Shown: positions 39,670 through 59,178 of the stretch, piece by piece
How the letters are laid out: every line of letters starts with the position of its first letter
Position numbering within the stretch: position 1 is the first letter of the stretch
Origin: Phreatobacter aquaticus
Lineage (GTDB): Bacteria > Pseudomonadota > Alphaproteobacteria > Rhizobiales > Phreatobacteraceae
Length of the DNA stretch: 64,000 nucleotides
NCBI RefSeq assembly: GCF_005160265.1
Contig: NZ_CP039865.1
Coordinates: forward strand, 3,062,828 to 3,126,827
Reading direction: 5' to 3'
The notes under the pieces: generated by a model
The model's input: only the letters and a program-made list of their open reading frames with translations
What the model was told of the DNA's origin: nothing
Databases searched by the model: none
Position numbers and translations under genes: made by a program

Positions 39670-40248
39670 CTAGCGCCTCGGCGCCGCCCAGCCCCGCTCG
39701 GTTGCGTCCCGCGCCACGAAGGCTGCGATCCTGTCGGCCTCCGCCAGCGTCAGGTCGATATCGTCCCAGCCATTGAGCAATTGCGTCTTCCAGACCGGAT
39801 CGATGCGGAACTCCACAACGACATTGCCTGCCGTGATCCGCTGGGCCGCGAGATCCACCGTCACCGGCAGATCGCCCGCCGCCAGCAGTGCCTCGGCATC
39901 GGCCTCGTCCACGGTCGCCGGCACGACGCCGTTCTTGACGCAGTTCGAGGAGAAGATGTCGCCGAAGCTCGGCGCGATGATGCAGCGGAAGCCGAAGTCG
40001 CCGAGCGCATAGACGGCCGCCTCGCGCGACGAGCCGCAGCCGAAATTGCGCCGCGCCACCAGGATCTTCTGGCCCGGCTGGGGCTCGGGAATGTCGCCCT
40101 CCTGCATCAGGTCATGCAGCAGGAAACGGCCATAGCCGTCCGGCTTGCGCGGCTCCTTCATGAAACGGGCGGGGATCAACTGGTCGGTGTCGACATTGGC
40201 GACCGGCAGCTTCAGCGCCGGCGCCGTCTCGGTGGTGAAGGGCGTCAT
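39670..40248 (-). CDS. leuD: LeuD-type hydro-lyase, small subunit
   Basis: The small (swivel) subunit of an aconitase-superfamily hydro-lyase annotated as 3-isopropylmalate dehydratase. It has [12 protein letters not shown] and FGCGSSRE, then [16 protein letters not shown]. The 192 residues are shorter than biosynthetic LeuD of enterobacteria (about 200), and the residues after GSSRE are AAVYAL, where biosynthetic LeuD reads HAPWAL, as in a second paralogue class. Its start overlaps the leuC stop by 4 bases. The genomic setting (catabolic operon, GntR regulator) suggests that leucine synthesis may not be its job. Confidence 0.87.
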
Positions 40249-41651
40249 GCGAACCGCCTCATGTCGGTAAGGTGTCCAGTGACGGCGGCAGCCGCCACCA
40301 TGGCGGGCGACATCAGATGCGTGCGCGCGCCCTGGCCCTGCCGGCCCTTGAAATTGCGGTTGGTAGTGGAGGCGCAGCGCTCGCCGGCAGCTACGAGGTC
40401 GCCATTCATGCCGACGCACATGGAACAGCCGGAATCCCGCCATTCGAGGCCAGCCTCGACAAAGACCCGGTCGAGCCCCTCCTGCTCGGCCTGCTGCTTC
40501 ACCAGCGACGAACCCGGCGAAACGATGCCCGGCACCACGGCCCGCCGGCCACGCAGCACGCCGGCCGCGGCCCTCAGGTCCTCGATGCGCGAATTGGTGC
40601 AGGAGCCGATGAAGACCCGGTCGACACGGATGGCCTCGAGCGCCTGGCCTGCGGCAAGCCCCATATAATCAAGCGCGTCGCGGGCCGCCGCCGCCTTGAT
40701 CGGATCGGTGATGCCATCGGGGTCTGGCACGCTGGCGCCAATCGGCAGCGCCTGTTCAGGGCTGGTGCCCCAGGTCACAGTCGGCGCGATATCGGCCGCC
40801 GACAGAACGATCTCCCGGTCGAACTCGGCGTCCGGGTCGCTCTTCAGCAGCGCCCAGGCGGCCTCCGCGCGCTCCCATGCCTCCCCCTCGGGGGCGAAGG
40901 GGCGGCCCTTCAGATAGGCCGAGGTCGTGGCGTCGGGAGCAACCATCCCGCAGCGCCCACCGGCCTCGATCGACATGTTGCATAGGGTCATGCGGCCCTC
41001 CATCGACAGGGCTCGGATCGCCGATCCCGCATATTCGATGGCATGACCGGCAGCGCCGTCGGCGCCGATGCGGGCAATCACCGTCAGCATGATGTCCTTG
41101 GCACTGATTCCTGGCCCGGTTTGCCCGTCGACACTGATACGCATGCGCTTCGGCTTTTTCTGCCACAGCGTCTGGGTTGCCAGCACATGGGCAACCTCGG
41201 AGGCGCCAATGCCGAAAGCATAGGCCCCGAAGGCGCCATGGGTGGAGGTGTGGCTGTCGCCGCACACCACTGTCAGCCCCGGCAGCGTCAGGCCCTGTTC
41301 GGTGCCGACGACATGGACGATTCCCTGCCGCGGGTCGTCGAGGCCGAACAACGTGATGCCGTGCGCTCGCGTGTTGGTGTCAAGAAGCGTGACCATGCGC
41401 GCAATGGTTGGGTCCGGGATCGGTCCGCCACGACCACGGGTTGGAACGTAGTGGTCGGCTACACCGAACGTCAGGTCTGGTCGCGCGATGGTTGCCCCGC
41501 GCTGGGCCACCTGACCAAAGGCGTGATGCGAGCCTTCATGGACGAAATGCCGGTCAATCCACAGCAAGGAAAGTCCATCGTAACGGGATGTCACGGTATG
41601 AGCGTTCCACAGCCGGTCGATTAGCGTTACGGAAGGTTTGGTGTTTACCAT
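40245..41651 (-). CDS. leuC: LeuC-type hydro-lyase, large iron-sulfur subunit
   Basis: The large subunit of the isopropylmalate isomerase family, 468 residues. It has the iron-sulfur cluster cysteines in GSCTNSR and [11 protein letters not shown]. The conserved [15 protein letters not shown] and RTHLMSPAM are present. The substrate-region motif, usually DHN-V-PT/ST, is [10 protein letters not shown], which I associate with LeuC paralogues outside leucine synthesis. It is cotranscribed with leuD and divergent from the gntR gene, with a candidate operator over its promoter. Possible substrates are citramalate, dimethylmaleate or a methylcitrate-like acid; isopropylmalate is not excluded. Confidence 0.88.
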
Positions 41652-41675
41652 GCGAGCGCGCTGCGTCCGTTTCAG

Positions 41676-41699
41676 GTTTGTCTTACATTATATACAAAC
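41676..41699. promoter_or_regulatory. Candidate GntR operator over the leuC promoter
   Basis: GTTTGT-N12-ACAAAC is an inverted repeat. Inside it, TATATACAA matches nine consecutive bases of the TTGTATATACAA half-site pattern known for HutC-like GntR regulators, and on the minus strand a TATAAT -10 box (41687-41692) overlaps it. It lies 25 bases before the leuC start, so a bound regulator would block leuCD transcription. The gntR gene is 128 bases away on the other side. Confidence 0.5.
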
Positions 41700-41754
41700 G
41701 GCTTGAAATGGATATGGCTAAATTGTCTGGGAAAAGCTACAACTAGGCGGTCCC

Positions 41755-41791
41755 CTCCCTGCCAACCTCAGGTGGTGGGCGGGGCAGGGAG
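41755..41791. other. Inverted repeat in the gntR upstream region
   Basis: CTCCCTGCC and GGCAGGGAG form a perfect 9-bp stem around a 19-base loop, 36 bases before the gntR start codon. It may be a leader hairpin or a second operator. Confidence 0.3.
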
Positions 41792-41826
41792 CGCAAGTCT
41801 CAAACTGCCGAACCAACGGTGAGACC

Positions 41827-42633
41827 ATGGCTGAAGCCATTGAAACGTCCAAGACACGCCGGGTCTATCTTACGTTGCGTGACAGGATCGGCTCGGGCGA
41901 GCTCAATCCTGGCGCTCGCCTGCCTTCCGAACCCGACCTCGCCGATCTCCACGACGTGTCACGGGTCACAATTCGCCGGGCGCTGGCCGAACTGGAGCGC
42001 GAGGGGCTGATCTCGCGCCGTCCGGGCGCCGGCACCTTCGTCACAGCCCGCACCATCAAGCGGCCGATTGTCGCAGATCTCTCCAATGCGCTGGCGCATC
42101 TGGTCGAGATGGGCCGCTCCACGGACGTGAAGCTTCTGCAATTCGGCTATGCCGAGCCCTCGGCCGAGATCGTCGATGCCCTGCGCCTCGAGGTCGGCGA
42201 GAAGGCCCAGCGCGCCGTGCGCGTCCGCATCATCGACAACGAGCCTTTCAGCTACCTCGTCACCCATGTGCCCCAGCGCATTGGCGCGACCTATTCCGAG
42301 GCCGAGCTCGGCTCCAAGCCGCTGCTGACCCTCATCGAGCGGACCGGCGTCAAGGTGGATCGCGCCACCCAGACCATTTCGGCGAGCCTTGCGGGTCCCG
42401 AGGTTGCCGAGGCCCTCGGCATCGAGATCGGCGCCCCGCTCATCGCGCTCACCCGCGTCGTCTATGACGTCAAGCGCCGGGGCATCGAGCATCTGGTCGC
42501 GCTCTACCGGCCGGATCGCTACTCGTTCCAGATGGATCTCGTGCGCATCGATGCCGGAGGCGACCGTCTCTGGTCGCCGGTCGAGCGGCTGAAGATCGGC
42601 GTCGGTATCAATGGAGCGGCCCACGGCGACTGA
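41827..42633 (+). CDS. GntR-family regulator with UTRA domain (HutC type)
   Basis: A 268-residue one-component regulator. The winged helix (about 12-75) has SGELNPGARLPSEPDLADLHDVSRVTIRRALAELE-type sequence, and the UTRA effector domain occupies about 95-240. HutC-type proteins usually act as repressors released by a pathway metabolite. It lies between leuCD (divergent) and the ABC importer (downstream, same strand, 105-base gap), so it most likely controls both arms of the locus. The candidate operator is at 41676-41699. Confidence 0.93.
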   Translation: MAEAIETSKTRRVYLTLRDRIGSGELNPGARLPSEPDLADLHDVSRVTIRRALAELEREGLISRRPGAGTFVTARTIKRPIVADLSNALAHLVEMGRSTDVKLLQFGYAEPSAEIVDALRLEVGEKAQRAVRVRIIDNEPFSYLVTHVPQRIGATYSEAELGSKPLLTLIERTGVKVDRATQTISASLAGPEVAEALGIEIGAPLIALTRVVYDVKRRGIEHLVALYRPDRYSFQMDLVRIDAGGDRLWSPVERLKIGVGINGAAHGD

Positions 42634-42738
42634 GGGGGGCTGGTCAACGGCGCGATCTCATGTTCTATTTCTAGGACAAAGAACGTAGCCGGCAGCAAAG
42701 CCGGGTTTCCAGAGCGGTTTGTAACGGAGGCCTTGACC

Positions 42739-43947
42739 ATGGTGATCGACAAGACCCTTTCCCGCCGGCGCATTCTCGCGGGCGGCGCAGCCGTGCTTGC
42801 AGCCCCCGGCCTCGCCCGGGCGCAGGCCGCACCCGTGAAGCTTGGCATTCTGCAGCCGGTGACCGGCAATCTCGCCCAGGACGGCGAGTATGGCCGCATC
42901 GGTGCCGAAGCCGCGATCAACGACATCAACCAGGCCGGCGGCATCAAGTCGCTTGGCGGCGCGAAGATCGAGATGGTCTTCGGTGACGCCCGCTCCAACC
43001 CGGAAGCCGGCACCCAGGAAGTCGAGCGCATGAACGGCGAGGGCGTCTCCGCCATCGTCGGCGGTTTTGCCTCGCCGATCTGCCTCGCCGCCTCGCAGGC
43101 CGCCTCCCGCTACGACCTGCCCTATGTGGTGGATGTCGGCGTGTCGGATGCCATCGTCTCGCGTGGCCTGAAGAACACGTTCCGCTTCGGTCCGGGCTTC
43201 GGCACCTGCACGCGGGTGGCGATCGAGAACCTCGTCAAGCTGAACGACGCCGCCGGCAAGCCGGCCAAGACCGTCGTCCTCGTCCATGAGGACGGCCTGT
43301 TCGGCACCGGTCTCGCCAAGCTGATGAACGAGCGGCTCTCCGCCCTCGGTTTCCAGATCCTCGAGACCATCCCGCACCCGACGCCGGCCCGCGACATGTC
43401 CAACGTCGCGCTGCGCATCCGCGCGCTGAACCCCGACCTTGTGATCCCGTCGAGCTATTACGGCGAGTTCGTGCTGCTTGCCCGCACCATGCAGCAGCAG
43501 CGCATCCGCCCGAAGGGTATCTACGCGGTGCTCAATGGCGCAGCCTCCAACTTCCGCTTCGTCAAGGAATTCCCGGACGCGGCGAGCAACGTGATGGACT
43601 GCAATCACTGGGCCGATCCGCGCAAGCCGAAGACCGCCGAGCTGCGCAAGCAGGTCGAGGCCACCGGCCGCTTCTGGCTCTACAACACGCCGCTCAACTA
43701 TTCCTGCGTGAAGCTGGTCGCCGATGCGATCGAGCGGGCAGCCTCCCGTGACCGCACCAAGATCATCGAGGCGCTGGCCGCTTCCACCTTCACCGACCAC
43801 ATCATGCCCTATGGCCCGACCCGGTTCGAGAACGGCCAGAACATGGGCGCGGCGCCGGTCAACACCCAGATCCAGGGTGGCGACATCAAGGTGATCTTCC
43901 CGGCCGAGTTCGCGGACGCCAAGGCGGTCTTCCCGGTCACCGGCTGA
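42739..43947 (+). CDS. Branched-chain-type ABC substrate-binding protein
   Basis: The periplasmic receptor (LivK-like, type I fold) of the importer encoded next to it; 402 residues. The signal SRRRILAGGAAVLAAPGLARA carries a twin-arginine-like motif. VKLGILQPVTGNLAQDGEYGRIGAE and SAIVGGFASPICLAASQAASRYDLPYV are typical. The ATG at 42739 has ACGGAGG 8 bases upstream; a TTG at 42733 is too close to it. The ligand is unknown: this family also binds urea, amides, aromatic acids and dicarboxylates, so leucine should not be assumed. Confidence 0.92.
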   Translation: MVIDKTLSRRRILAGGAAVLAAPGLARAQAAPVKLGILQPVTGNLAQDGEYGRIGAEAAINDINQAGGIKSLGGAKIEMVFGDARSNPEAGTQEVERMNGEGVSAIVGGFASPICLAASQAASRYDLPYVVDVGVSDAIVSRGLKNTFRFGPGFGTCTRVAIENLVKLNDAAGKPAKTVVLVHEDGLFGTGLAKLMNERLSALGFQILETIPHPTPARDMSNVALRIRALNPDLVIPSSYYGEFVLLARTMQQQRIRPKGIYAVLNGAASNFRFVKEFPDAASNVMDCNHWADPRKPKTAELRKQVEATGRFWLYNTPLNYSCVKLVADAIERAASRDRTKIIEALAASTFTDHIMPYGPTRFENGQNMGAAPVNTQIQGGDIKVIFPAEFADAKAVFPVTG

Positions 43948-44011
43948 GGGGCGGGCCAACGGCCCGTTCCACCCTCGTCCCCCGACCGCAAGCCGGAGAG
44001 AGACCTCTCTC

Positions 44012-44893
44012 GTGTTCCGATCCTATCCGCCTCAGATCGTGCTGGAGGCCGTGCTCAACGGCCTCCTCACCGGCGCAGTCTATGCGCTGGTCGCGCTGGG
44101 CTTGACGCTGGTTTACGGCGTTTTGCACATCATCAACTTCGCCCATGGCGCCATGCTCACTCTCGCCATGTTTGCGGTGTTGATGGTCCATCTGGGCTTC
44201 GGACTGGATCCGTACCTCGCGATTCCGGTCCTCGCGCCACTTTTTTTTCTGGTGGGCTATCTCCTCCAGCGCCTCGTCATCGGTCCGGCCAGCCGCAATG
44301 ACGACAGTTCGATCCTGCTGGTGACCCTGGGGTTGTCGATCGTGCTGGAGAACGGCCTTCTGGCCATCTTCCGCTCCGACACCCGCTCGCTGACGCTGGA
44401 CTACTCCTTCTCGGTTCTGGACATCGGTGTCGCGCTCTTGTCGCTGCCGCGCGTCGTCGGGTTCGGCGTGGCGGTGCTGGTGGCGGGCGGCCTCTGGGCG
44501 ATCCTGGCGCTGACCGATACGGGCAAGGCGATCCGCGCGGTCGCCAAGGAGAAGCTCGGCGCGGCCCTGGTCGGCATCGACGTCAACCACGTCTATGCCG
44601 TCACCTTCGGGCTGGGTGCTGCCACGCTCGCCATCGCCGCCTGCCTGCTCATGCCCTCGTTCTACGTCAATCCGCGGGTCGGCAATGCCTTCGTCCTGGT
44701 CGCCTTCACCGTGGTCGTGCTGGGCGGCATGGGCTCGATCCCCGGCGCGTTGTTGGGCGGGCTGATCATCGGCGTGGTGGAAAGCCTCTGCGGCCTCTAT
44801 CTCGGCGAAAGCCTTGGGCAGATTGGCATATTCCTGATCTTCATCCTGGTTCTGCTGGTCCGGCCGACCGGCCTGTTCGGAGCCAGGGCATGA
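44012..44893 (+). CDS. Branched-chain-type ABC permease, LivH-like
   Basis: The first inner-membrane permease of the importer, 293 residues, eight or so helices, GTG start. It has GLTLVYGVLHIINFAHGAMLTL near the start and the EAA-like coupling segment VVLGGMGSIPGALLGGLIIGVVES, typical of LivH. Its last 4 bases overlap the LivM-like gene, indicating translational coupling. It begins 64 bases after the binding-protein gene. Confidence 0.94.
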   Translation: MFRSYPPQIVLEAVLNGLLTGAVYALVALGLTLVYGVLHIINFAHGAMLTLAMFAVLMVHLGFGLDPYLAIPVLAPLFFLVGYLLQRLVIGPASRNDDSSILLVTLGLSIVLENGLLAIFRSDTRSLTLDYSFSVLDIGVALLSLPRVVGFGVAVLVAGGLWAILALTDTGKAIRAVAKEKLGAALVGIDVNHVYAVTFGLGAATLAIAACLLMPSFYVNPRVGNAFVLVAFTVVVLGGMGSIPGALLGGLIIGVVESLCGLYLGESLGQIGIFLIFILVLLVRPTGLFGARA

Positions 44894-45885
44894 CCGCCGG
44901 ACGCTCTGGTCTTTCCGACTTCCTGCCGATTGCGGTGGTTGCGCTGGCGCTGGCCCTGCTGCCGACCGGGCTCACGCTTGCGGGCAGCACAGGCACGCTG
45001 CTGAACCTTGCCATCACCATCCTGATCCTGTCGCTCGCGGCTCAAGGGTGGAACATCGCGGGCGGCTATGGTGGCCAGTTCTCCTTCGGCCACGCCGCCT
45101 TCTTCGGCATGGGCGCCTATGGCCAGGCGGTGCTGCAGGCCCGTCTCGGCGTCAATCCCTGGGTGGCGCTGCCGCTGGCCGTGACGCTCGGCAGTCTCGT
45201 CGGCCTTGGCATCGGCTATCTCGCCTTCCGGGCCCGGCTCCGCGGCTCCTACTTCGCCCTGGTGACGCTGGCCTTCGCCGAAGTGTTCCGCATCCTCGCC
45301 AATGCCGCGCCGTTCACCGGCGGCGCTGCGGGAACGCTGCTGCCGCTGGATGTGCGGCCCGCCAACTTCCAGTTCGCCGCCCGCGAGACCTTCTTCTATC
45401 TGGCCCTGGTCATGGTGGTCGCGGTGCTTGTGCTCAACCGCCTGATCGAGCGCTCGCGCTTCGGCGCCTATCTGGTGGCGGTACGCGAGAACGAGGATGC
45501 CGCCCGCTCGCTCGGCGTCGATACCCTCGCCGTCAAGCTCAAGGCGATCGCCCTGTCGGCGGCCATCACCGCGGCGTCGGGCGCGCTCTACACCCAGAAA
45601 TTCCTCTATATCGACGCCAACATCGCCTTCGGATCATGGATTTCGGTCGAGGCACTGCTCGCCCCGATCATCGGCGGCATTGGCACTGTCTTCGGCCCGC
45701 TGGTCGGAACCGCCACGCTGCTCGGCCTCGGCGAACTGGCCAAGACCGGCATCCACGCGGCCTTCGGCTCGGCCATTCCCGGCATCGACCTCATCCTCTA
45801 TGGCGTGCTGCTGGTCGCGGCCATCGCCTTTGCACCGCAGGGTGTGATGGGCCTTGTCGCGCGCCTGACGCGGGGAGGGCGCTGA
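44890..45885 (+). CDS. Branched-chain-type ABC permease, LivM-like
   Basis: The second permease, 331 residues, with helices throughout. The family segments YGGQFSFGHAAFFGMGAY and FRARLRGSYFALVTLAFAEVFRI are present, and the coupling segment is APIIGGIGTVFGPLVGTATL. The gene starts inside the LivH-like stop (ATGA) and its stop TGA shares one base with the LivG-like ATG. Confidence 0.94.
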   Translation: MTAGRSGLSDFLPIAVVALALALLPTGLTLAGSTGTLLNLAITILILSLAAQGWNIAGGYGGQFSFGHAAFFGMGAYGQAVLQARLGVNPWVALPLAVTLGSLVGLGIGYLAFRARLRGSYFALVTLAFAEVFRILANAAPFTGGAAGTLLPLDVRPANFQFAARETFFYLALVMVVAVLVLNRLIERSRFGAYLVAVRENEDAARSLGVDTLAVKLKAIALSAAITAASGALYTQKFLYIDANIAFGSWISVEALLAPIIGGIGTVFGPLVGTATLLGLGELAKTGIHAAFGSAIPGIDLILYGVLLVAAIAFAPQGVMGLVARLTRGGR

Positions 45886-46625
45886 TGCTGTCGGTTGAAG
45901 CGGTCAGCAAGCGGTTCGGCGGTCTTCTGGCTGTCAGCGACGTGACGATGCGGGTAGCGCCCGGCTCGATCAGCGGTCTGATCGGCCCGAACGGCGCTGG
46001 CAAGACCACGCTGTTCACGATGATCTCCGGCTTCGAACGGCCGACCTCGGGCCGGATCCTGTTCGACGGGCGCGACATCACGGGCACTGCGCCAGAGGTT
46101 CTGGCGGCGGCCGGCATCGCCCGAACGTTCCAGATCGTCCAGCCCTTTGCCGGGCTCTCGGTGATCGAGAATGTCGCGGTCGGCGCCTATCTGCGCCATC
46201 CCGGCCGCCGCGAGGCGCTCGCCCGCGCCGAAGCCGTTGCCGATCTCGTCGGTCTCGGCAGTCTCGGCCAGCCGGCGTCGTCCCTGACGGTTGCCGGCCG
46301 CAAGCGGCTGGAACTCGCCCGTGCGCTGGCCACCGAGCCGCGTCTCCTGCTGCTCGACGAGGTGCTCGCCGGCCTCAATCCCTCCGAGATCCGCGACATC
46401 ATCCCGGTCGTTCAGGCGATCCGCGCGTCGGGCGTCACCATCCTGATGATCGAACATGTCATGCAGGCGGTGATGAGCCTCTGCGAACATGTCCATGTCA
46501 TCGCCAATGGGCAGACCATCGCGTCGGGCGCGCCTTCGGCCATCGTCGGCGATCCGAAGGTGGTCGAGGCCTATCTCGGCCATGGTGCGGCCGAACGTCT
46601 GGCGGGAAGGGCGGCCCATGGCTGA
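45885..46625 (+). CDS. Branched-chain-type ABC ATPase, LivG-like
   Basis: A cytoplasmic ATPase of 246 residues. Walker A is GPNGAGKTT and Walker B is LLLLDEVLAGLNP. The segment where LivG proteins normally have a GQ- or GE-containing signature motif reads SSLTVAGRKRLELARAL, so the signature loop is atypical. ARTFQIVQPFAGLSVIENV is the normal Q-loop. It overlaps the LivF-like gene by 8 bases. The second ATPase has a canonical signature, so the pair may hydrolyse ATP asymmetrically. Confidence 0.93.
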   Translation: MLSVEAVSKRFGGLLAVSDVTMRVAPGSISGLIGPNGAGKTTLFTMISGFERPTSGRILFDGRDITGTAPEVLAAAGIARTFQIVQPFAGLSVIENVAVGAYLRHPGRREALARAEAVADLVGLGSLGQPASSLTVAGRKRLELARALATEPRLLLLDEVLAGLNPSEIRDIIPVVQAIRASGVTILMIEHVMQAVMSLCEHVHVIANGQTIASGAPSAIVGDPKVVEAYLGHGAAERLAGRAAHG

Positions 46626-47337
46626 CACCAGTCCGCTGCTGTCGGTCGAGGGGCTGGTGGCCGGCTATGGCGGCACCGAGATCCTGCGCGGACTGACCAT
46701 GACGGTCGAGCCCGGCGAGATCGTCGCTGTCCTCGGCTCCAACGGCGTCGGCAAGACGACCTTGAACAAGGTCCTGTCGGGCATCGTGCCAGCGGGAGCC
46801 GGGCAGGTCCGGTTCGCGGGTGAGGTCATCACCGGGGCATCGCCACAGGCCATCGTCGATCTCGGGCTGATCCATGTGCCCGAGGGGCGCAAGATCTTCC
46901 CGAACATGACCGTGCGCGAGAACCTCGTGCTCGGCTCCTATCGCCGGGCGCGCGGCAATCGCGCGGCCAATCTCGAGCGGGTCTTCGAGACCTTCCCGCG
47001 GCTGAGGGAGCGCGACCGCCAGTCGGCCGGCACGCTGTCGGGCGGCGAACAGCAGATGCTCGCCATCGGCCGCGGCCTGATGGGCGAACCCCGGCTTCTG
47101 ATCCTCGACGAGCCCTCGCTCGGCCTGTCGCCGCTTCTGGTCGAGGAGATGTTCCAGCTGATCCGTCGCCTGAATGCCGACGGGCTCGCGATCATGCTGG
47201 TCGAGCAGAACGTCATGCAGTCGCTCGATGTCGCCTCCCGGGCCTTTATCCTGGAGAATGGCATCTTCGCCCTGCACGGACAGGCGAGCGAGCTTGCCGC
47301 CGCGCCGGATCTTCGCCGCGCTTATCTGGGGATGTGA
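46618..47337 (+). CDS. Branched-chain-type ABC ATPase, LivF-like
   Basis: The second ATPase, 239 residues. Walker A is GSNGVGKTTL, the Q-loop region has GLIHVPEGRKIFPNMTVRENL, the signature is canonical LSGGEQQMLAIGRGL, and Walker B is LLILDEPSLGLSP. The start ATG at 46618 lies inside the LivG-like gene. It completes a five-part importer and is followed after 4 bases by the MmgE/PrpD gene. Confidence 0.94.
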   Translation: MADTSPLLSVEGLVAGYGGTEILRGLTMTVEPGEIVAVLGSNGVGKTTLNKVLSGIVPAGAGQVRFAGEVITGASPQAIVDLGLIHVPEGRKIFPNMTVRENLVLGSYRRARGNRAANLERVFETFPRLRERDRQSAGTLSGGEQQMLAIGRGLMGEPRLLILDEPSLGLSPLLVEEMFQLIRRLNADGLAIMLVEQNVMQSLDVASRAFILENGIFALHGQASELAAAPDLRRAYLGM

Positions 47338-47341
47338 GGCC

Positions 47342-49640: not shown

Positions 49641-51328
49641 GCATGCTCGATCCTGTCACCCTGGCCGTCCTGAAGGGGCGGCTGGAGCAGATCGCCGACG
49701 AGATGGACGCGACGCTCTATCGCTCGGCCTTCAATCCGATCATCGCGGAAGCGCGCGACGCCTGCCACGGCCTCTATCACCGCGAGACCGGTGACACGCT
49801 GGTGCAGGGCACCAAGGGCCTGCCGATCTTCGTCGGTGCCATGTCCTTTGCGGTCAAGGCGGTGATCGAGAAGGTGAAGGCGTCAGGCGGCGCCAAGCCC
49901 GGCGACACCTTCATCTTCAACGACCAATATGCCGGCGGCACCCATCTGAACGATTTCCGGCTGGTTCGGCCGATCTTCCGGGATGGAAAGCTGTTCTGCT
50001 GGCTGGCGTCTGCCGGTCACTGGCTCGACATCGGCGGCAATGTGCCCGGCGGCTACAATCCGGTGGCGACCGAGAGCTTCCAGGAGGGCGTGCTGATCCC
50101 GGTGGTCAAGCTCGTCGCGGCCGGCGAGTTGCGCCAGGATATTCTCGATATCCTGGCCGCCAATTCGCGCCTGCCCAATTCCAACTGGGGCGACCTCAAC
50201 GGCCAGCTGAATGCGCTGGATCTCGGCGAGAAGCGCCTCGGCGCGCTGCTGCAGGACTATGGCGACGCTATCGTTGACCAGGCCTTCGCTGCCTTCTCCG
50301 ATCGCGCCGAAGCCCTGATGCGCGACGCGATCGCGGCGCTGCCGGACGGCCGCTATTCCTTCGAGGACTATCTCGACAATGACGGCATAGTCGACCAGCC
50401 GCTGACAGTTGCCCTCGACCTGACGATCGCCGGCGACCGGATGGAGCTCGACTTCTCGCGCTCCTCGCCGCCCTGCCAGGGGCCGATCAACATCTCGCTG
50501 CCGACCACGATCGCCGCCTGCTATGTCGCGCTGAAGCACGTCTTCACCGAGGTTCCGGCCAATGCCGGCTGCCTCCGTCCCATCAGCTTCATCATTCCCG
50601 ACACGACGCTGCTGGGTGCCAAGGCGCCGAAGCCGATGGCCGGCTATACCGAGACCATCCTCAGGCTGATCGGCGTGGTGTTCGGAGCTCTTGCCGAGGC
50701 TGTGCCTGAGCGCGCGACCGGCGGCCCCTTCGGCACGATCAACGCGCTCTCCATCGCCGGCCACCGCGCCAATGGCACGCGCTGGGTCATGTTCTCGTTC
50801 TTCGGCGGCGGTCTCGGCGGCAATCCGGAATCGGATGGCCTGAACCACGCCAACAACCCCATCTCGACTGCGACCATACCGCCCGTGGAAATTCTCGAAG
50901 CCGCCTATCCCGTCATGTTCACCCAATGGGCCCTGCGTCCGGATTCCGCCGGCGCCGGCAAGCATCGCGGCGGGCTTGGTGCCATCTACGAGGTCGAGGT
51001 TCTCGACGAGCGGGGCGCCGAGGTGTTCCTGCTCGGCGAGCGCGGACGCTTCGCCCCATTCGGTGTGAATGGCGGTGGTAGCGCTGCCCTCAACCGCTTC
51101 ACCTGGACAGATGCCACCGGCACACACGAGCCCCCCATGGCTTCCAAGATCACCGGGGTGAAACTTGGCCAGGGCTATCGCGTCCGCTTGGAAACGCCCG
51201 GTGGCGGCGGCTTTGGTGACCCTGCCGAGCGGGATCCAGCCGCCATCGCTCGCGATGTTGTGTTGGGCTATGTGACGGCGCCGAGCCTTGAGAGCGACTA
51301 TGGCGTGAGCACGGGAGAGCCGTCATGA
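49637..51328 (+). CDS. Hydantoinase B/oxoprolinase family protein
   Basis: A 563-residue B-type subunit (HyuB). With the A-type subunit it forms an ATP-dependent cyclic-amide hydrolase acting on hydantoins, 5-oxoproline or similar lactams. The family pattern is seen in PVTLAVLKGRLEQIADEMDATLYRSAFNPIIAEARDACHG-like sequence, DTFIFNDQYAGGTHLNDFRLV, and GGGGFGDPAERDP at the end. It starts with GTG overlapping the lyase stop (GTGA) and overlaps hyuA by 4 bases. The substrate is not predictable from sequence. Confidence 0.92.
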   Translation: MSMLDPVTLAVLKGRLEQIADEMDATLYRSAFNPIIAEARDACHGLYHRETGDTLVQGTKGLPIFVGAMSFAVKAVIEKVKASGGAKPGDTFIFNDQYAGGTHLNDFRLVRPIFRDGKLFCWLASAGHWLDIGGNVPGGYNPVATESFQEGVLIPVVKLVAAGELRQDILDILAANSRLPNSNWGDLNGQLNALDLGEKRLGALLQDYGDAIVDQAFAAFSDRAEALMRDAIAALPDGRYSFEDYLDNDGIVDQPLTVALDLTIAGDRMELDFSRSSPPCQGPINISLPTTIAACYVALKHVFTEVPANAGCLRPISFIIPDTTLLGAKAPKPMAGYTETILRLIGVVFGALAEAVPERATGGPFGTINALSIAGHRANGTRWVMFSFFGGGLGGNPESDGLNHANNPISTATIPPVEILEAAYPVMFTQWALRPDSAGAGKHRGGLGAIYEVEVLDERGAEVFLLGERGRFAPFGVNGGGSAALNRFTWTDATGTHEPPMASKITGVKLGQGYRVRLETPGGGGFGDPAERDPAAIARDVVLGYVTAPSLESDYGVSTGEPS

Positions 51329-53382
51329 GCGAGGCGCGCTCCCGCCTGGTTGGCGTCGATGTCGGCGGCACCTTCACCGATCTCTTCTTCATGGACGAGG
51401 CTGCCGGTACCTTCCGCACAGCCAAGGTCCCCTCCAACCGTGGCGACGAGGCCGTCGGCTTTCTCGAAGGGCTGAAGACCTTCGGCGCGCTGTCCGATCT
51501 CGGCTCCATCGTCCACGGCACGACGGTTGGCACCAATGCGCTTTTGGAGCGCAAGGGCGCGCGGATCGGCGTCATCACCACCACCGGCTTCCGCGACGTT
51601 CTGGAAATGCGCCGCCGTGACCGCCGCAACACCTGGGGCCTGTGGGGCGACTTCACCCCCGTCGCCGACCGCGACCTGCGTCTGGAAGTGGACGAGCGGA
51701 CGCTGGCCGATGGTACCATCCGCCAGGCCGTCGATCCGGCCGACGTCGAGGCTGCCGTCCGCGTGCTGATCGACAAGGGCGCGGTGGCGCTCGCCATCAT
51801 CTTCGTCAATGCCTACGCCAATCCCGCCAATGAGCGGGCCGCAGCCGAGGCCGCCCGCCGCGTCTGGCCGAACGAACATGTCTCGGTCTCCTCGGAGATC
51901 CTGCCGGAGATCCGCGAGTTCGAGCGCGCCTCCACCACCGCGCTCAATGCCTATCTCCAGCCGGTGGTCGGCTCCTATCTCGCCAAGCTTGGCGACGCGC
52001 TGCAGGGCGAGGCCTTCACCGGCCCGTTCCACATCGTCCAGTCGAATGGCGGCGTCATGTCCACGGCCACGGCGCGGCGGTTGCCGGTGCGCACCGCGCT
52101 GTCGGGACCCGCGGCGGGCGTCATCGCGGCTGCGGCGATCGCAGGGGCCGCGGGCTATCCCGACGTGATCACCGGGGATCTCGGCGGCACCTCCTTCGAC
52201 GTTTCGCTGATCGCTGGCGGCGAGGCGGCGCTGGCGGCCCAGACCACGATCGATTTCGGCATGGTCATCCGCAACCCAATGATCGAGATCACCACGATCG
52301 GTGCCGGCGGCGGGTCGATCGCCCATGTCGACAAGGGCGGCCTCCTTGAGGTCGGGCCGGAAAGCGCCGGCTCTCGGCCGGGTCCCGTCGCCTATGGCGG
52401 CGGCAATGACCGCCCGACGCTGACGGATGCCAATATCGTGCTCGGCCGGATCAATGCCGAGCGTCCGATCGGCGGCAAGCTGAAGCGTCTCGATGTGGAG
52501 GCGGCAGCGGACGCCATCCGCCGTCATGTCGGCGAGCCGCTGGGGCTTGAGACCCATGCCGCGGCCGAGGCGATCGTCCGCATCGCCGATGCACGCATGG
52601 CTGGCGCAATCCGCCTCGTCTCCATCGAGCGCGGACACGATCCCTCGAAATTCGCGCTGGTGCCGTTCGGCGGCGGCGGCGCCCTCCATGCCGGCGCGCT
52701 GATCGCGGATATCGGGCTGAAAGCGGCCTTGGTCCCGCGTTTTCCGGGCGTGACCTCCGCCATGGGTTGCGTCATCGCCGATATCCGGCATGACCAGGTG
52801 CAGACCCTGAACGTCATGCTCGATGGTCTGGATGCCGTCGCCCTCGATCGCCGGATGGCGGCCGAAGGCGAGGCAGCGCGTTCCGTCGTCGCTGCAGCCG
52901 GCCTCGCCATCTCCCGGATCGATGTCGTGTTCGAACTCGACATGCACTATCTCGGCCAGACCCACACGGTCGGCGTTCCACTGCCGGTCACGCTTGAGAG
53001 CGGCACCACCGGGGTCACGGAGGCGATCGTCCGCCAAGCTTTTGAGGCGGCCTATTCGCGCGCCTTCTCCCGGCTTCTGCCCGGTCTCGGCGTGCGCATC
53101 GTCAATCTGCGCACCGCCGCCATCGGGCGCCGCCCGAAGATCGACCTGACCGCGCTGGCCCCTGACGCGTCGGCCTCGCTCGAGCTTGCCCGCACCGGCT
53201 CCCGCCGCGTCTGGTTCGGCGGCTGGCGCGACACCTCGATCTGGTCGCGTCTCGACCTGCCGGTCGGCGCCGTGGTGGAAGGCCCAGCCATCCTCGAACA
53301 GCCCGATGCGACGACCGTCGTGCCACCTGGCCAGCGCGCCCGTGTCGATGCGCTCGGCAATCTGATCCTGGAGCGCGCCTGA
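51325..53382 (+). CDS. Hydantoinase A/oxoprolinase family protein
   Basis: The ATP-binding A-type subunit (HyuA), 685 residues. VGVDVGGTFTDLFF near the N-terminus is the phosphate-binding loop of the ASKHA fold. GSIVHGTTVGTNALLERKGARIGVITTTGFRDVL and GDLGGTSFDVSLI are conserved features, with GAGGGSIAHVD and FGGGGALHAGALI later. It is translationally coupled to the B subunit upstream and shares one base with the downstream gene. It is too short to be the A+B fused 5-oxoprolinase (about 1200), as expected for a two-gene enzyme. Confidence 0.93.
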   Translation: MSEARSRLVGVDVGGTFTDLFFMDEAAGTFRTAKVPSNRGDEAVGFLEGLKTFGALSDLGSIVHGTTVGTNALLERKGARIGVITTTGFRDVLEMRRRDRRNTWGLWGDFTPVADRDLRLEVDERTLADGTIRQAVDPADVEAAVRVLIDKGAVALAIIFVNAYANPANERAAAEAARRVWPNEHVSVSSEILPEIREFERASTTALNAYLQPVVGSYLAKLGDALQGEAFTGPFHIVQSNGGVMSTATARRLPVRTALSGPAAGVIAAAAIAGAAGYPDVITGDLGGTSFDVSLIAGGEAALAAQTTIDFGMVIRNPMIEITTIGAGGGSIAHVDKGGLLEVGPESAGSRPGPVAYGGGNDRPTLTDANIVLGRINAERPIGGKLKRLDVEAAADAIRRHVGEPLGLETHAAAEAIVRIADARMAGAIRLVSIERGHDPSKFALVPFGGGGALHAGALIADIGLKAALVPRFPGVTSAMGCVIADIRHDQVQTLNVMLDGLDAVALDRRMAAEGEAARSVVAAAGLAISRIDVVFELDMHYLGQTHTVGVPLPVTLESGTTGVTEAIVRQAFEAAYSRAFSRLLPGLGVRIVNLRTAAIGRRPKIDLTALAPDASASLELARTGSRRVWFGGWRDTSIWSRLDLPVGAVVEGPAILEQPDATTVVPPGQRARVDALGNLILERA

Positions 53383-53978
53383 TGGACATCGCCCGCACAG
53401 CCTTGCTGATCTGCGACCTGCAGAACGACTTCCTGCACAAGGACGGCGCCTATGGTCGGGCGAACCAGGCCTCGCCCGAGATCGCGGCAGTCCCCGAGCG
53501 CGTGAAGCCGCTGGCCGATCTGATCCGGACCAAGGGCGGCTGGATCGTATCGACCCATTTCACGCTGGTGCCCGGCAAGGGCGGCGAACCCTTCATCTCG
53601 CCGCACCTGAAGAAGCTCCGGCCCTTCCTCAAGAAGGGTGATTTCGTGCCGGGCGGCTGGGGTCACGACCTCGTGGACATCCTGCAGCCCGCCGATATCA
53701 AGGTGGAGAAGGTCGCGTTCTCGGCTTTCTATATGTCGAGGCTCGAATGGGTGCTGAAGAAGGCCGGCATCGAGGAGCTTCTGGTCACGGGCATCGTCAC
53801 CAATGGCGGCGTTGCCTCCACCGTGCGCGACGCCCATGTCCGGGATTTCCACGTGACCGTCATCGAGGACGGCTGCGCGGCCTTCACCCCGCAGGTCCAT
53901 GCCGAGGCCATCGCAGGGCTGAAACCCGTGGCCCGGATCGCAACGGTCGCCGAGCTGATCCGCGAGATCGGCGGCTGA
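53382..53978 (+). CDS. Isochorismatase-fold hydrolase lacking the cysteine nucleophile
   Basis: A 198-residue protein of the isochorismatase-like superfamily. D12 (LICDLQNDF) and K110 (VEKVAFSAF) match the catalytic Asp and Lys. The nucleophile position, normally Cys in TN-x-C-V of the amidases, is Gly143 in VTNGGVAST. True isochorismatases (PhzD, EntB) also have Gly there and hydrolyse a vinyl ether without covalent catalysis. It is therefore unlikely to be an N-carbamoyl- or nicotin-amidase. It follows hyuA directly in the operon and precedes the flavoprotein gene by 10 bases. Confidence 0.85.
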   Translation: MDIARTALLICDLQNDFLHKDGAYGRANQASPEIAAVPERVKPLADLIRTKGGWIVSTHFTLVPGKGGEPFISPHLKKLRPFLKKGDFVPGGWGHDLVDILQPADIKVEKVAFSAFYMSRLEWVLKKAGIEELLVTGIVTNGGVASTVRDAHVRDFHVTVIEDGCAAFTPQVHAEAIAGLKPVARIATVAELIREIGG

Positions 53979-53988
53979 GGAGGGCACC

Positions 53989-55398
53989 ATGGCCCGCATC
54001 ATCGTCGACGACGGCGCCTTCGAGACGACCATTACCGTGGCGATCATCGGCGGCGGCGCGGCGGGTCTTTGCGCTGCATTGGCCGCGACCGAGGCGGGCG
54101 CCGAGGTCGTCGTCTTCGAACGCGATGCCCTGCCGCAAGGCTCCACCTCGCTCTCCGCCGGCCTGATCCCGGCGCCCGGCACGAAGGCGCAGGCAGAAGC
54201 CGGCATTGCCGACAGCCCCGAGCTGTTTGCCCGCGACATCCAGGCCAAGGCCCATGGCGATGCCGATCAGACCGTGCTTGATCTGGTCGCTGCAGGCGCC
54301 GGTCCGGCCATCGACTGGCTGGCCGAGGCCCACGGCCTGGCCTTCACCGTGATCGCCGACTTCTCCTATCCCGGCCATTCTGCCAGGCGCATGCACGGGC
54401 TTGCCTCGCGCTCAGGCGCGGAACTGATCGACCGGCTGCGAGCCGCCGTCGAGCGGGCTGATATCCCGATCATGACGGAAGCCCATGTCACCGGTTTGGT
54501 CGTCTCCGGCTCGGGCGATCTGCGCGGCCTTGAGATCACCCGTCCCGATGGCTCCGCCGAGCGTATCGGCGCCACTGCCATCGTGCTCGCCTGCAACGGC
54601 TATGGCGGCAACAAGGCTCTCGTCGCCGAGCACATTCCCGACCTCAAGGACGCCCTCTATTTCGGCCATCCCGGCAACCAGGGCGATGCCGTCCTGTGGG
54701 GAAGGGGACTTGGCGTCGAGCTCCGCCACATGAGCGGTCATCAGGGCCATGGCTCGGTCGCCCATCCCCACGGCATCCTCGTCTCCTGGGCCGTCATCAT
54801 GGAAGGCGGCTTCCAGGTGAATGCCGAGGGTCGCCGTTTCTGGAACGAATCGCAGGGCTATTCGGAGGCGGCCCTTGCCGTCCTCGGCCAGCCGGGCGGC
54901 GTGGCCTTCGACATTTTCGATGCCCGCATCGCCGGCATCGCGCGCCAGTTCGAGGACTTCCGCCGCGCCGAGGCAACCGGCGCGGTCATCACGGCAGAGA
55001 GCCCGGAGGCGCTCGCGCAGGCCCTGAAGATCGAGCCCCAAGTGATTCTGGAGACACTCGAATCCGTCGCCAACCTCAAGTCGCATGGCGGAATCGATAC
55101 TTTAGGTCGCGACTGGTCCGGCCTTCCTCAACTTGAATCTCCGTATCAAGCCGTGCGCGTCACCGGCGCCCTGTTCCACACCCAGGGCGGCCTTGCCGTG
55201 GATCGGAGCGCGCGTGTCGTGAAGCCCGACGGTTCCGCTATCCCCAATCTGTTCGCGGCTGGGGGAGCGGCGGTGGGGGTTTCAGGTCCCGATGCCTCGG
55301 GTTACCTTTCCGGCAATGGCCTCGTTACCGCTGTCGTCCTTGGACGCATCGCGGGAACCGAGGCGGCAGGAATGGTCCGCAATGCCGCTCGATCTTGA
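53989..55398 (+). CDS. FAD-dependent oxidoreductase, fumarate reductase/ketosteroid dehydrogenase type
   Basis: A 469-residue cytoplasmic flavoprotein. VAIIGGGAAGLCAALAATEAGAEVVVFER is the FAD Rossmann motif (glycines at about 21-26), and SLSAGLIP with a late GLAVDRSARVVKPDGSAIPNLFAAGGAAVGVSG segment are typical of the FrdA/KstD/FccA superfamily. These enzymes introduce or reduce an alpha,beta double bond. In this operon it could desaturate or reduce a succinate-like intermediate, which is inference. Its last 17 bases overlap the aminopeptidase gene. Confidence 0.88.
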   Translation: MARIIVDDGAFETTITVAIIGGGAAGLCAALAATEAGAEVVVFERDALPQGSTSLSAGLIPAPGTKAQAEAGIADSPELFARDIQAKAHGDADQTVLDLVAAGAGPAIDWLAEAHGLAFTVIADFSYPGHSARRMHGLASRSGAELIDRLRAAVERADIPIMTEAHVTGLVVSGSGDLRGLEITRPDGSAERIGATAIVLACNGYGGNKALVAEHIPDLKDALYFGHPGNQGDAVLWGRGLGVELRHMSGHQGHGSVAHPHGILVSWAVIMEGGFQVNAEGRRFWNESQGYSEAALAVLGQPGGVAFDIFDARIAGIARQFEDFRRAEATGAVITAESPEALAQALKIEPQVILETLESVANLKSHGGIDTLGRDWSGLPQLESPYQAVRVTGALFHTQGGLAVDRSARVVKPDGSAIPNLFAAGGAAVGVSGPDASGYLSGNGLVTAVVLGRIAGTEAAGMVRNAARS

Positions 55399-57304
55399 AG
55401 CTCTTCGTCCGCTCGCCGCCCGCGTCAAGGCAACCCCCTCGTCGAAGAACCCGGACGATTGGCTGAGCGCGGCAGCGCCGTCTGCCACGCCGGCCGAACG
55501 GGCGAAGCTTGCCGCCCTGGTCGCGGCGGCGCCAGAGCCATCATTCGCCCGCGATGCCAGCCGCATCCCGGCGCTGCAGCGGATTCTGAAGACGAAGAAG
55601 CTCGCCGCCCTGCTGGTGCCGCGCACCGACGAGCACCAGGGCGAGTATATCGTCACCCGTGCCGAACGGCTGAAATGGCTGACCGGCTTCTCCGGCTCGG
55701 CAGGCTTCGCCATCGTGCTGCAGAAGGAAGCGGCTCTCTTCGTCGATGGCCGCTACACCTTGCAGGCGCCGGCCGAGACCGATGCCTCCGTCATTGAATG
55801 CCGCCACTTCAAGAAGCCCCCGGCGATCGAATGGCTCGCGGGCAAAGTCAGGAAAGGCGACCGGGTCGGCTTCGATCCGAAGATCACCTCGCTTGTCGAG
55901 GCGGAGCGCTGGCGGGAGGCGCTGACGAAAGCCGGCGCCGAGCTCGTCGCGCTCGACGCCAATCCGATCGACGAGATCTGGACCGACCAGCCGGGCGATC
56001 CTTTTGCGGCGGTGCGGACGCAGCCGCTGAAATATGCCGGTGAGGCGAGCGCCGACAAGCGCGTCCGGATCGGCGAAATGGTCGCGGCGCGCGGAGCTGC
56101 GGCAACGGTGCTGAACCAGCTCGATTCCATTGCCTGGACACTCAACGTCCGTGGCGGTGACACGCCCTCGACGCCGCTGGTCCAGAGCTTCCTGGTCGTG
56201 GCGGCCGATGGTCACGCCACCTGGTTCGTCGATCCGAAGAAACTCACTGCCGATATCGCGGCGCATCTCGGCAACGGCGTGACGATCCGCCCGATCGAGG
56301 CCTTCGCCGCTGGCCTGAAGGATCTCGCGGGCAAGACCGTCACCATTGAGCCCGAGACCGCCACGGCCTGGGTCGAGCAACGCCTGGTGGAAGCGGGCTC
56401 AACCGTCATTCGCGGACCCGATCCTTCGGTCTTGCCCAAGGCGCGCAAGAACCCGGTGGAACTTGCGTCCACCCGCAAGGCCCATATCCGCGATGGCGCG
56501 GCGATGGTGCGCTTCCTGTCCTGGTTCGATGATGAGGCGCTGGGCCAGAGCGAACTCGCGGTCATGGACAAGCTCGAGGAGATCCGCGGTGCTGATCCGC
56601 TGCACCGGGGCGCAAGCTTCACCTCCATTGCTGGCTCAGGCCCGAACGGCGCGATCGTTCATTATCGCTCGAGCGAAGCGACAGCGCGTCCTGTCGAGAA
56701 CGGCACGTTCTTCCTGCTGGATTCCGGCGCGCAATATGTCGACGGCACCACCGACATCACGCGCACCATTCCCGTCGGCAAGGTCTCGCGCGCGCTGAAG
56801 CGCCACTTCACTCTCGTCTTGAAGGGCCATATCACGGTTGCGACGGCGCGCTTTCCGAAGGGCACCGGCGGTATCGCCATCGATGGCTTCGCTCGTCGCG
56901 CGCTGTGGGAGCACGGCCTCGACTTCGACCATGGCACGGGCCATGGCGTCGGGGTCTATCTCGGCGTCCACGAGGGGCCCGGCCGAATCTCACCCCTGTC
57001 GCAGGTGCCACTCGAAGCCGGCATGATCCTGTCGAACGAGCCTGGGCTCTATGTCACGGGATCGCACGGTATCCGGATCGAGAACCTTCTCGTGGTGCGC
57101 GAGGCGAAAGCGGTTGGGTTTCTCGAGTTCGAAACCATCACCTTCTGCCCGATCGACAGAAGGGCCATCGATGCCACAATGCTTTCCCCGGCAGAGCGGG
57201 CCTGGATCGACAGCTACCACATGCGGGTCCGCAAACTGCTCGAACCGCTGTTGACCGGCAAGGCCAAGACTTGGCTGATCAGAATGACAAAGGCATTGCG
57301 CTAG
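55382..57304 (+). CDS. Aminopeptidase P (M24B, large form)
   Basis: A dimetal peptidase that removes an N-terminal residue before proline, 640 residues, the large three-domain form. The C-terminal pita-bread domain carries the ligands: DSGAQYVDGTTDITRT with both Asp, HGTGHGVG with His, then LSNEPGLY and ENLLVV with the two Glu. I chose the ATG at 55382 (MPLDLEALRPLAARV); it lies inside the flavoprotein gene, and the frame stays open 30 codons earlier. Being last in the operon, it may be a passenger or may cut an amide in the pathway. No creatinase-like shortening is seen. Confidence 0.92.
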   Translation: MPLDLEALRPLAARVKATPSSKNPDDWLSAAAPSATPAERAKLAALVAAAPEPSFARDASRIPALQRILKTKKLAALLVPRTDEHQGEYIVTRAERLKWLTGFSGSAGFAIVLQKEAALFVDGRYTLQAPAETDASVIECRHFKKPPAIEWLAGKVRKGDRVGFDPKITSLVEAERWREALTKAGAELVALDANPIDEIWTDQPGDPFAAVRTQPLKYAGEASADKRVRIGEMVAARGAAATVLNQLDSIAWTLNVRGGDTPSTPLVQSFLVVAADGHATWFVDPKKLTADIAAHLGNGVTIRPIEAFAAGLKDLAGKTVTIEPETATAWVEQRLVEAGSTVIRGPDPSVLPKARKNPVELASTRKAHIRDGAAMVRFLSWFDDEALGQSELAVMDKLEEIRGADPLHRGASFTSIAGSGPNGAIVHYRSSEATARPVENGTFFLLDSGAQYVDGTTDITRTIPVGKVSRALKRHFTLVLKGHITVATARFPKGTGGIAIDGFARRALWEHGLDFDHGTGHGVGVYLGVHEGPGRISPLSQVPLEAGMILSNEPGLYVTGSHGIRIENLLVVREAKAVGFLEFETITFCPIDRRAIDATMLSPAERAWIDSYHMRVRKLLEPLLTGKAKTWLIRMTKALR

Positions 57305-57446
57305 GTGTCCAGCGATTTGATCTGTAGCGCATGACGCTACGGAAGGCAGGTAACTGGATACAACTTGCGCGAATTGGTTTCCGTTAGGCTACCATTTGTT
57401 AATTGCATTTCCCCATTGTTTTTCCGTGAATGGAACCAACGGGGCG

Positions 57447-59150: not shown

Positions 59151-59178
59151 TCTGGTCCATTCTTGTGACGAAAACTGG

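Follow-up and report, generated by a model that had tools for sequence, protein, structure and literature searches.

What is degraded by a gene cluster that sets a leucine-pathway-type hydratase (LeuCD), a PrpB-like lyase, the two subunits of an ATP-dependent cyclic amidohydrolase (HyuAB), an isochorismatase-fold protein and a flavoprotein behind one importer? The question is raised by positions 39670-57304 of the window, by which we mean the whole stretch of 64,000 nucleotides analyzed from the 4.97-Mb single-contig genome of Phreatobacter aquaticus (Hyphomicrobiales). The gene set reads as a putative operon for the catabolism of a branched cyclic imide that carries a carboxyl group, with hematinic acid and/or its dihydro form as the likeliest candidate, an answer that we regard as evenly balanced. 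We are considerably more assured of the general logic, in which a cyclic imide would probably become a branched maleate, then a hydroxy acid, and finally the substrate of a lyase. Hematinic or dihydrohematinic acid as the substrate, taken on its own, falls slightly short of an even chance.

A conserved, probably catabolic unit

From an importer permease through the flavoprotein, ten genes overlap or are almost contiguous, with leuDC divergent from them. Domain and family searches recovered every gene that the initial annotation had named here, in the order it gave, and its overlapping starts and stops were confirmed, with gaps of -17 to +10 bp between neighbors from livH through the aminopeptidase P gene (overlapping or within 10 bp). 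The neighborhood is not confined to one strain: synteny reaches across several orders of the Alphaproteobacteria, and versions of the cluster occur in betaproteobacteria and in a haloarchaeon. The arrangement in Roseomonas is the same as in the window, while Azospirillum oryzae has the regulator, importer, lyase, hyuBA, isochorismatase, flavoprotein and leuCD, and Sulfitobacter has a tripartite ATP-independent periplasmic (TRAP) carrier, leuDC, regulator, tautomerase-fold protein, hyuBA, isochorismatase, lyase and flavoprotein. An annotated relative of the cluster occurs in Neorhizobium, and marine Roseobacteraceae also carry the gene set.

Among 199 genomes of the order, HyuB orthologs and flavoprotein homologs were each found in 29 and both together in 26 (Fisher p about 5e-26, uncorrected for phylogeny), and the lyase lay within 6 kb of hyuB in 28 of 29 cases. 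The coupling of flavoprotein and hyuB does not stem from linkage alone, because two genomes hold both genes far apart (265 kb in G100, 28 kb in G029); in three others (G024, G183, G181) they are on different contigs. The cluster is a conserved unit, far beyond chance.

A census of loci picked by the flavoprotein comprised 164 (L036-L146 and L184-L236), of which 155 were kept after removal of three without a flavoprotein match of at least 40% (L226, L231, L232) and six near-duplicates; L272 and L273, described below, were not counted. The sample of relatives was the best 80 of 579. Identity thresholds were our own choice (HyuB 55%, HyuA 50%, deacetylase 45%, lyase 40%, leuC types 45%). The loci are phylogenetically non-independent, absences are lower bounds because many loci are incomplete, and the residue tallies below count duplicate loci too. 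A recognized ring opener was present at 109 of the 155 loci, accompanied by the lyase at 101, the isochorismatase-fold protein at 99 and leuC at 63.

Probable ring opening by interchangeable hydrolases

HyuB (49637..51328, + strand; PF02538) and HyuA (51325..53382, + strand; PF01968 and others) share fold, family and best NCBIfam matches with the caprolactamase, N-methylhydantoinase and 5-oxoprolinase group. Their best models are the beta and alpha subunits of caprolactamase, at 303 and 496 bits against equivalog cut-offs of 1000, so their substrate probably differs from that of caprolactamase. HyuA also reached 330 bits to the acetophenone carboxylase gamma subunit and, among solved structures, 397 bits to 5-oxoprolinase and 387 to N-methylhydantoinase (7hk5). 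Its N-terminal loop GVDVGG is kept in 92 of 94 matches (the 92 that cover it), and S260 in all 94.

Hydrolase models outscore carboxylases for HyuAB, and in other loci non-homologous hydrolases fill the same slot. A PuuE-like polysaccharide-deacetylase pair occupies it in 6 of 155 loci, none of which has window-type HyuAB; one of them, in Acidiphilium (L060), combines the pair with a distant HyuAB (31-38%, below our thresholds). In the available excerpt of PMC3084791, the natural substrate of PuuE is given as "a small cyclic imide". On a Natrinema versiforme plasmid (L272, 11803-21897), the opener is an amidohydrolase of the D-hydantoinase family, in a stretch with flavoprotein, isochorismatase, CoA-transferase, 3-hydroxy-3-methylglutaryl-CoA (HMG-CoA) lyase, LeuC, LeuD, isocitrate lyase (ICL)-type lyase and PrpD. 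Three different families in one slot therefore point to the opening of a cyclic amide or imide as the step they share. A citrate:proton symporter lies near the Natrinema genes. A more distant version on a Rhodococcus gordoniae plasmid (L273) has HyuAB, amidase, PrpD, CoA ester lyase, flavoprotein (38%), a dihydroorotase-type amidohydrolase and a CoA-transferase.

An isochorismatase-fold protein without its nucleophile

The next gene (53382..53978, + strand; PF00857) encodes an isochorismatase-fold protein with glycine in place of the nucleophilic cysteine. This replacement was found in all 99 matches of at least 50% identity, and D12 and K110 were likewise kept in 99 of 99. We take Asp-Lys-Cys to be the catalytic triad of isochorismatase-fold cysteine amidases, in line with the alignment obtained here; the triad of N-carbamoylsarcosine amidase, RutB and nicotinamidase is incomplete in the HyuAB-associated form, where cysteine occurs in 0 of 99. 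The version paired with the deacetylases has it in 6 of 6.

If the half-amide is a 2,3-dialkylmaleamate, an enzyme nucleophile may be unneeded, as the behavior of an acid-labile anhydride linker suggests. 2-Propionic-3-methylmaleic anhydride is used as such a linker, according to excerpts of PMC7466692 and PMC9176665. By its structure, we identify this compound as the anhydride of hematinic acid. The cysteine-less protein could accordingly assist self-cleavage of the amide or hydrolyze the anhydride.

A candidate imide dehydrogenase

The flavoprotein (53989..55398, + strand; FAD_binding_2, PF00890) aligns best with flavocytochrome c fumarate reductases. It shares with flavocytochrome c3 fumarate reductase and with 3-ketosteroid dehydrogenase (KSTD) the FAD_binding_2 fold; the fumarate-reductase histidines are mostly kept (H254 in 159 of 165 matches of at least 40% identity, H397 in 162), and the tyrosine pair is reminiscent of KSTD. 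Unlike the fumarate reductase, it has no heme domain, and the arginine pair, presumably catalytic and carboxylate-binding, is replaced at the aligned positions by Tyr291 and, approximately, Tyr439. Tyr439 is present in 165 of 165 matches and Tyr291 in 158, with replacements in the other 7. Tyr291 aligns with a KSTD tyrosine, and Tyr439 falls near, not in, the column of the second. The roles of the Tyr318 and Tyr487 pair of ketosteroid dehydrogenase are described in the part of PMC5348764 available. With KSTD-like tyrosines where arginines would be expected, dehydrogenation beside a neutral carbonyl is therefore proposed, namely that of a saturated imide (succinimide type) to a maleimide.

A putative catabolic hydratase paralog

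The divergent genes encode the small (leuD, 39670..40248, - strand; Aconitase_C, passing LeuD models NF002458 and TIGR00171) and large (leuC, 40245..41651, - strand; PF00330, best NCBIfam model PRK12466) subunits of a hydratase. That a second leuCD should exist elsewhere, as expected if this pair is a catabolic paralog, was supported by a second LeuC at genome positions 537994-539382 (56% identical to the cluster LeuC) and, 0.1 Mb from it, a second LeuD at 638022-638627 (40% identical, with one stop reported within the matched stretch). Three open reading frames beside the second LeuC, picked as leuD or leuB, gave no match, and leuB was sought no further. The second LeuC outscores the cluster LeuC against the leucine-pathway model TIGR00170 (799.5 versus 658.7 bits), and at least two LeuC-type matches occurred in 15 of 16 genomes searched, that of the window included; the sixteenth is a draft.

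In a LeuC tree, 50 cluster rows stood apart (support 80/93) from 14 biosynthetic ones, whose clade had support 100/100, and a short type formed its own group; one row labelled biosynthetic (L271) sits in a cluster. Judged from these comparisons, the cluster leuCD is a paralog distinct from the second LeuC and LeuD of the genome. C351, C409 and C412, to which we assign an Fe-S role, are kept in 47 of 47 LeuC matches. Two LeuCD types were present, in 45 and 24 of 155 loci, and never together (0 versus 7 expected); hydration is therefore the constant function.

Proposed carbon-carbon cleavage and isomer handling

The lyase of the ICL/phosphoenolpyruvate-mutase superfamily (48756..49640, + strand) has the KRCGH loop previously noted in it, at residue 118. 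Its best NCBIfam model is prpB (297 bits, under the equivalog cut-off of 354), and its best matches among solved structures are 2-methylisocitrate lyases. Positions that we take to be catalytic (acid/base and metal) are kept in 112 of 112 matches, and R119 in 109. An oxaloacetate hydrolase (OAH) was considered and rejected: the window has serine at what we assume is the OAH position, but all seven aligned relatives have proline. In a 29-kb Acidiphilium stretch, CoA-transferases and HMG-CoA lyases were found and no ICL-type lyase; HMG-CoA lyases in its place therefore fit cleavage of a 2-hydroxy-2-alkyl (malate-like) acid, at this one locus. The stretch, L060 of Acidiphilium multivorum, belongs to a conjugative plasmid and holds LeuCD, flavoprotein, two CoA-transferases, two HMG-CoA lyases, deacetylases and the distant HyuAB, with transposases on one side of the gene set.

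The MmgE/PrpD-family protein (47342..48763, + strand; PF03972 and PF19305), a dehydratase or epimerase, had been proposed as a core step and proved an optional module: it occurs in 40 of 155 loci, tautomerase-fold proteins in 29, and both in 4. Since its best solved-structure match is iminodisuccinate (IDS)-epimerase (2hp0, E 2e-27), followed by Bacillus IRG1 (E 5e-26), PrpD and the tautomerase-fold proteins are read as likely isomer handlers. A tautomerase-SnoaL-like fusion heads the operon in L144 (4136-4711), where its domains were seen, and in 18 other loci with the same protein cluster, mostly Rhodobacterales. Enlarged clusters (L224 and L044 in G166, Afifella; L230 in G359; L059 in Tistrella) carry a tautomerase and two proteins of the Asp/Glu racemase family, together with a second copy each of flavoprotein and PrpD; these extra enzymes perhaps serve other stereoisomers. 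In L212 and L218, flavoprotein homologs have two genes of the Asp/Glu racemase family and a binding protein of the DctP type as neighbors, with no HyuAB in the sampled stretch.

Glutaryl-CoA dehydrogenase linkage and the identity of the substrate

Tetrapyrrole maleimides, with hematinic acid first, were among several candidates before any product gene emerged. Such genes were then found in a Burkholderia plantarii plasmid cluster, which includes electron-transfer flavoprotein (ETF) genes, a glutaryl-CoA dehydrogenase (GCDH; 735 bits to the solved GCDH 3gnc) and a CoA-transferase that scores best on the succinate-glutarate CoA-transferase model (542 bits, with a cut-off of 750). In Afifella (L044 = L099) and in G021 (L054 = L225), the flavoprotein gene is directly followed by a co-oriented GCDH gene; that of G021 is unique in its genome at E<=1e-150. 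Jiella endophytica has a group of LysR, GCDH and CoA-transferase genes between flavoprotein and leuDC. Counting proteins at least 67.8% identical to the B. plantarii GCDH (L044 = L099, L054, L065, L101), 4 of 155 loci have GCDH in the cluster against about 0.6 expected for an assumed mean genome size of 4.2 Mb (Poisson p about 0.003). Acyl-CoA dehydrogenases at L053, L077 and L079 (protein cluster C17, eight loci) were only 30-34% identical to that protein and were dropped. Across 121 genomes, GCDH was present in 16 of 16 that bear the flavoprotein versus 79 of 105 others (p 0.015).

This linkage suggests a skeleton bearing a carboxyethyl group: for glutarate to be released by an ICL-type lyase, the substrate would have to be a malate substituted with 2-carboxyethyl at C3. 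Hematinic acid, 3-(4-methyl-2,5-dioxopyrrol-3-yl)propanoate, is a natural cyclic imide with a 2-carboxyethyl side chain, and its diacid, 2-methyl-3-(2-carboxyethyl)maleate, is 2-methyl-cis-aconitate plus one carbon. Hematinic acid and its dihydro form arise from heme and chlorophyll. In excerpts of PMC7318184, hematinic acid was found in leaves with no maleimides detected there, and its occurrence in senescent leaves is cited; it is described as a small breakdown product, chlorophyll turnover is put on a scale of ~10^12 kg/year, and chlorophylls other than c are said to have a reduced ring D. A title in the reference list of PMC6018153 refers to hematinic acid released from heme by a bacterial protein. 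Literature searches on the substrate, the gene set and imide hydrolases, with supplements and subscription journals outside their scope, returned no description of the cluster among the matches listed; likewise among those matches, no bacterial genes consuming hematinic acid were described, and the papers listed by a further search did not use the term "dihydrohematinic". The view that no described pathway has this exact set thus stands for the matches listed.

A proposed route to pyruvate and glutarate

Each reaction, and the substrate itself, is proposed from the gene content, protein families, conservation, residue patterns and linkage observed. The imide would be taken up by the importer of the leucine-isoleucine-valine (LIV) type; in relatives, TRAP, major facilitator superfamily or citrate-type carriers stand beside the set. 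A saturated form of the imide is expected because ring D of chlorophyll is already reduced, and the flavoprotein would dehydrogenate it to the maleimide, which HyuAB would open at the expense of ATP. From the resulting 2,3-dialkylmaleamate, the cysteine-less isochorismatase-fold protein may free ammonia with the neighboring carboxylate of the substrate as nucleophile; alternatively, it may hydrolyze the resulting anhydride. LeuCD would hydrate the diacid (2-methyl-homoaconitate) to 2-methyl-homoisocitrate, the PrpB-like lyase would cleave this to pyruvate and glutarate, and a CoA-transferase and GCDH would consume the glutarate. PrpD, or in relatives a tautomerase and Asp/Glu racemases, would deal with the wrong isomers.

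More tentatively, and with somewhat less confidence than we place in the substrate, this could be the first gene-level route mineralizing tetrapyrrole-derived maleimides, a "methyl-homocitrate-like" pathway that would turn hematinic and dihydrohematinic acid into pyruvate, glutarate and ammonia. It would rely on a flavin-dependent imide desaturase and on an isochorismatase-fold enzyme that has no nucleophile of its own and leaves the amide to be cut by the carboxylate of the substrate; versions would occur among alpha- and betaproteobacteria and among haloarchaea, the latter with another ring opener. In outline, the initial annotation anticipated much of this: import, opening of a cyclic amide or imide by HyuAB, hydration by LeuCD and ICL-type cleavage to an oxoacid are retained, while a core role for PrpD and any role for aminopeptidase P are not.

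Comparison with known pathways

The second half of the methylcitrate cycle converts 2-methyl-cis-aconitate to 2-methylisocitrate and then to pyruvate and succinate, through an aconitase-type hydratase, PrpB and PrpD. The cluster resembles it in its aconitase-superfamily hydratase, PrpB-like lyase, PrpD-family protein and predicted pyruvate; it differs in that its input would be an imide entering via HyuAB and the proposed second product is glutarate, one carbon longer than succinate. No methylcitrate synthase is among the 15 genes called in 39670-57304, each of which belongs to another family. The anaerobic nicotinate pathway uses 2,3-dimethylmaleate hydratase and 2,3-dimethylmalate lyase, and the cluster likewise pairs a LeuCD-type hydratase with an ICL-superfamily lyase for a disubstituted maleate. 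However, it has HyuAB and the flavoprotein instead of the upstream genes, and the side chain is predicted to be carboxylated; the nicotinate pathway itself, invoked earlier as a parallel, is not supported here, as enamidase, 2-methyleneglutarate mutase and methylitaconate isomerase are not among the window genes called. Cyclic imide degradation of the succinimide/maleimide type relies on an imidase and a half-amidase. The passage from imide to half-amide to diacid is alike, most of all where relatives have an opener of the deacetylase or hydantoinase type and a cysteine-bearing isochorismatase, whereas the window cluster has an ATP-dependent opener, a cysteine-less partner and a flavoprotein, followed by LeuCD and the lyase.

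Weighing the alternatives

Several observations weigh against hematinic acid or against the route as drawn. At 46 of the 155 loci the flavoprotein has no recognized ring opener, and 26 of these have no recognized partner at all; a scan of ten genes around flavoprotein-only and other loci gave little upstream chemistry. Both subunits encoded in the cluster score above the cut-offs of leucine-pathway models, LeuC on TIGR00170 (658.7 versus 560.25 bits) and LeuD on TIGR00171 (145.9 versus 116.25 bits), support for the main catabolic LeuC group is moderate (80/93), and four of 54 long-type cluster rows (L060, L066, L101 and L226, that of Jiella included) fall outside it. Since ATP is not required to open simple imides, its use here has to be explained by re-closure of disubstituted maleimides. 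With a cysteine-less isochorismatase-fold protein, precedent assigns no enzyme to the second amide cleavage, and the role given to PrpD is a guess. GCDH linkage is rare (4 of 155 loci), a second sample of 53 stretches yielded no new linked GCDH, and the gene is widespread among genomes of the order (95 of 121); its distance in the window genome is ~0.23 Mb to the window and 0.27 Mb to the cluster, and a link there was discarded. The name GCDH rests on the structure matches of the B. plantarii protein and the 67.8-69.6% identity of the others to it, and scores on the NCBIfam models for GCDH and CoA-transferase all stayed below the cut-offs. Finally, no heme- or chlorophyll-degrading gene is named in the annotated stretches, where no search was aimed at them.

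Much of this would suit the same logic acting on one or more other imides, such as methylethyl- or methylvinylmaleimide, citraconimide or an unknown natural imide, with the GCDH linkage incidental. The module substitutions leave the side chain unfixed, only those 4 of 155 loci tie it to GCDH, and large clusters (L224, L230) carry extra flavoproteins, racemases and a tautomerase. We nonetheless consider a different imide rather unlikely, as two lineages have GCDH directly after the flavoprotein in the same orientation and two more have it inside the cluster, above chance; carriers of the carboxylate type (TRAP DctP, citrate symporter) suit a substrate with a carboxyl group; and the leaves in the excerpts of PMC7318184 held hematinic acid with no maleimides detected. 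A hydantoin or N-methylhydantoin (creatinine-type) pathway, in which the isochorismatase-fold protein would remove a carbamoyl group, draws on the match of HyuA to N-methylhydantoinase (7hk5, 387 bits) and on Asp/Glu/hydantoin racemase-family genes in some relatives. It is improbable: the cysteine of carbamoyl amidases is glycine in 99 of 99 matches, the ground on which the creatinine/N-methylhydantoin reading was rejected, the window cluster has no amino-acid-handling enzyme save the genus-limited aminopeptidase P, and LeuCD and the lyase would be left idle.

A six-ring imide (citrazinate-like, from isonicotinate) would lead through aconitate and isocitrate, compounds that LeuCD- and ICL-type enzymes could use, to succinate and glyoxylate. 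We hold it to be very improbable, since the linked product is glutarate rather than succinate and no molybdenum-type pyridine hydroxylase is named in nine annotated plasmid stretches, the extent of that search. Hardly credible is a chance assembly in which leuCD serves leucine synthesis beside unrelated catabolic genes. In the window, the pair diverges from the main operon, and its products pass leucine-pathway models, but a second LeuC and LeuD exist in the genome, LeuC falls into separate groups, and leuCD lies within or beside the cluster in many lineages.

Regulation and neighboring genes

A GntR/UTRA regulator (41827..42633, + strand; Pfam GntR and UTRA) precedes the importer, which consists of a periplasmic substrate-binding protein (42739..43947; Peripla_BP_6), livH-type (44012..44893; BPD_transp_2) and livM-type (44890..45885; BPD_transp_2) permeases, and livG-type (45885..46625; ABC_tran and BCA_ABC_TP_C) and livF-type (46618..47337; ABC_tran) ATPases, all on the + strand. 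In the divergent leuC-gntR promoter region, an imperfect dyad-like motif of the type TTGTATCATAG(G/A)(A/C)TAGACA (41676..41699, unstranded) is kept in six Phreatobacter relatives, the window having a looser variant, and is a plausible GntR operator. Scans for consensus promoters and terminators were not above chance.

Aminopeptidase P (about 55382..57304, + strand), which the initial annotation counted as a pathway member, was left out of the set because it is found beside the cluster only in Phreatobacter (7 of 164 loci, of which two are one and the same). Next, at 57396-61010 (+ strand), come two methyl-accepting chemotaxis proteins with single Cache_3 domains. Homologs 65-79% identical to them come after the cluster in six other Phreatobacter genomes (seven loci, two the same), and this recurrence suggests chemotaxis toward the substrate or a related carboxylate.

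Implications

If the proposed route is correct, it would close a gap in the bacterial consumption of hematinic acid and give functions to many proteins now annotated as "isopropylmalate dehydratase", "hydantoinase" or "fumarate reductase flavoprotein". Even with another imide as substrate, the cluster would represent a route with swappable modules for which no description was found in the literature searched, and the cysteine-less isochorismatase-fold family poses a clear enzymological question whichever imide it serves.

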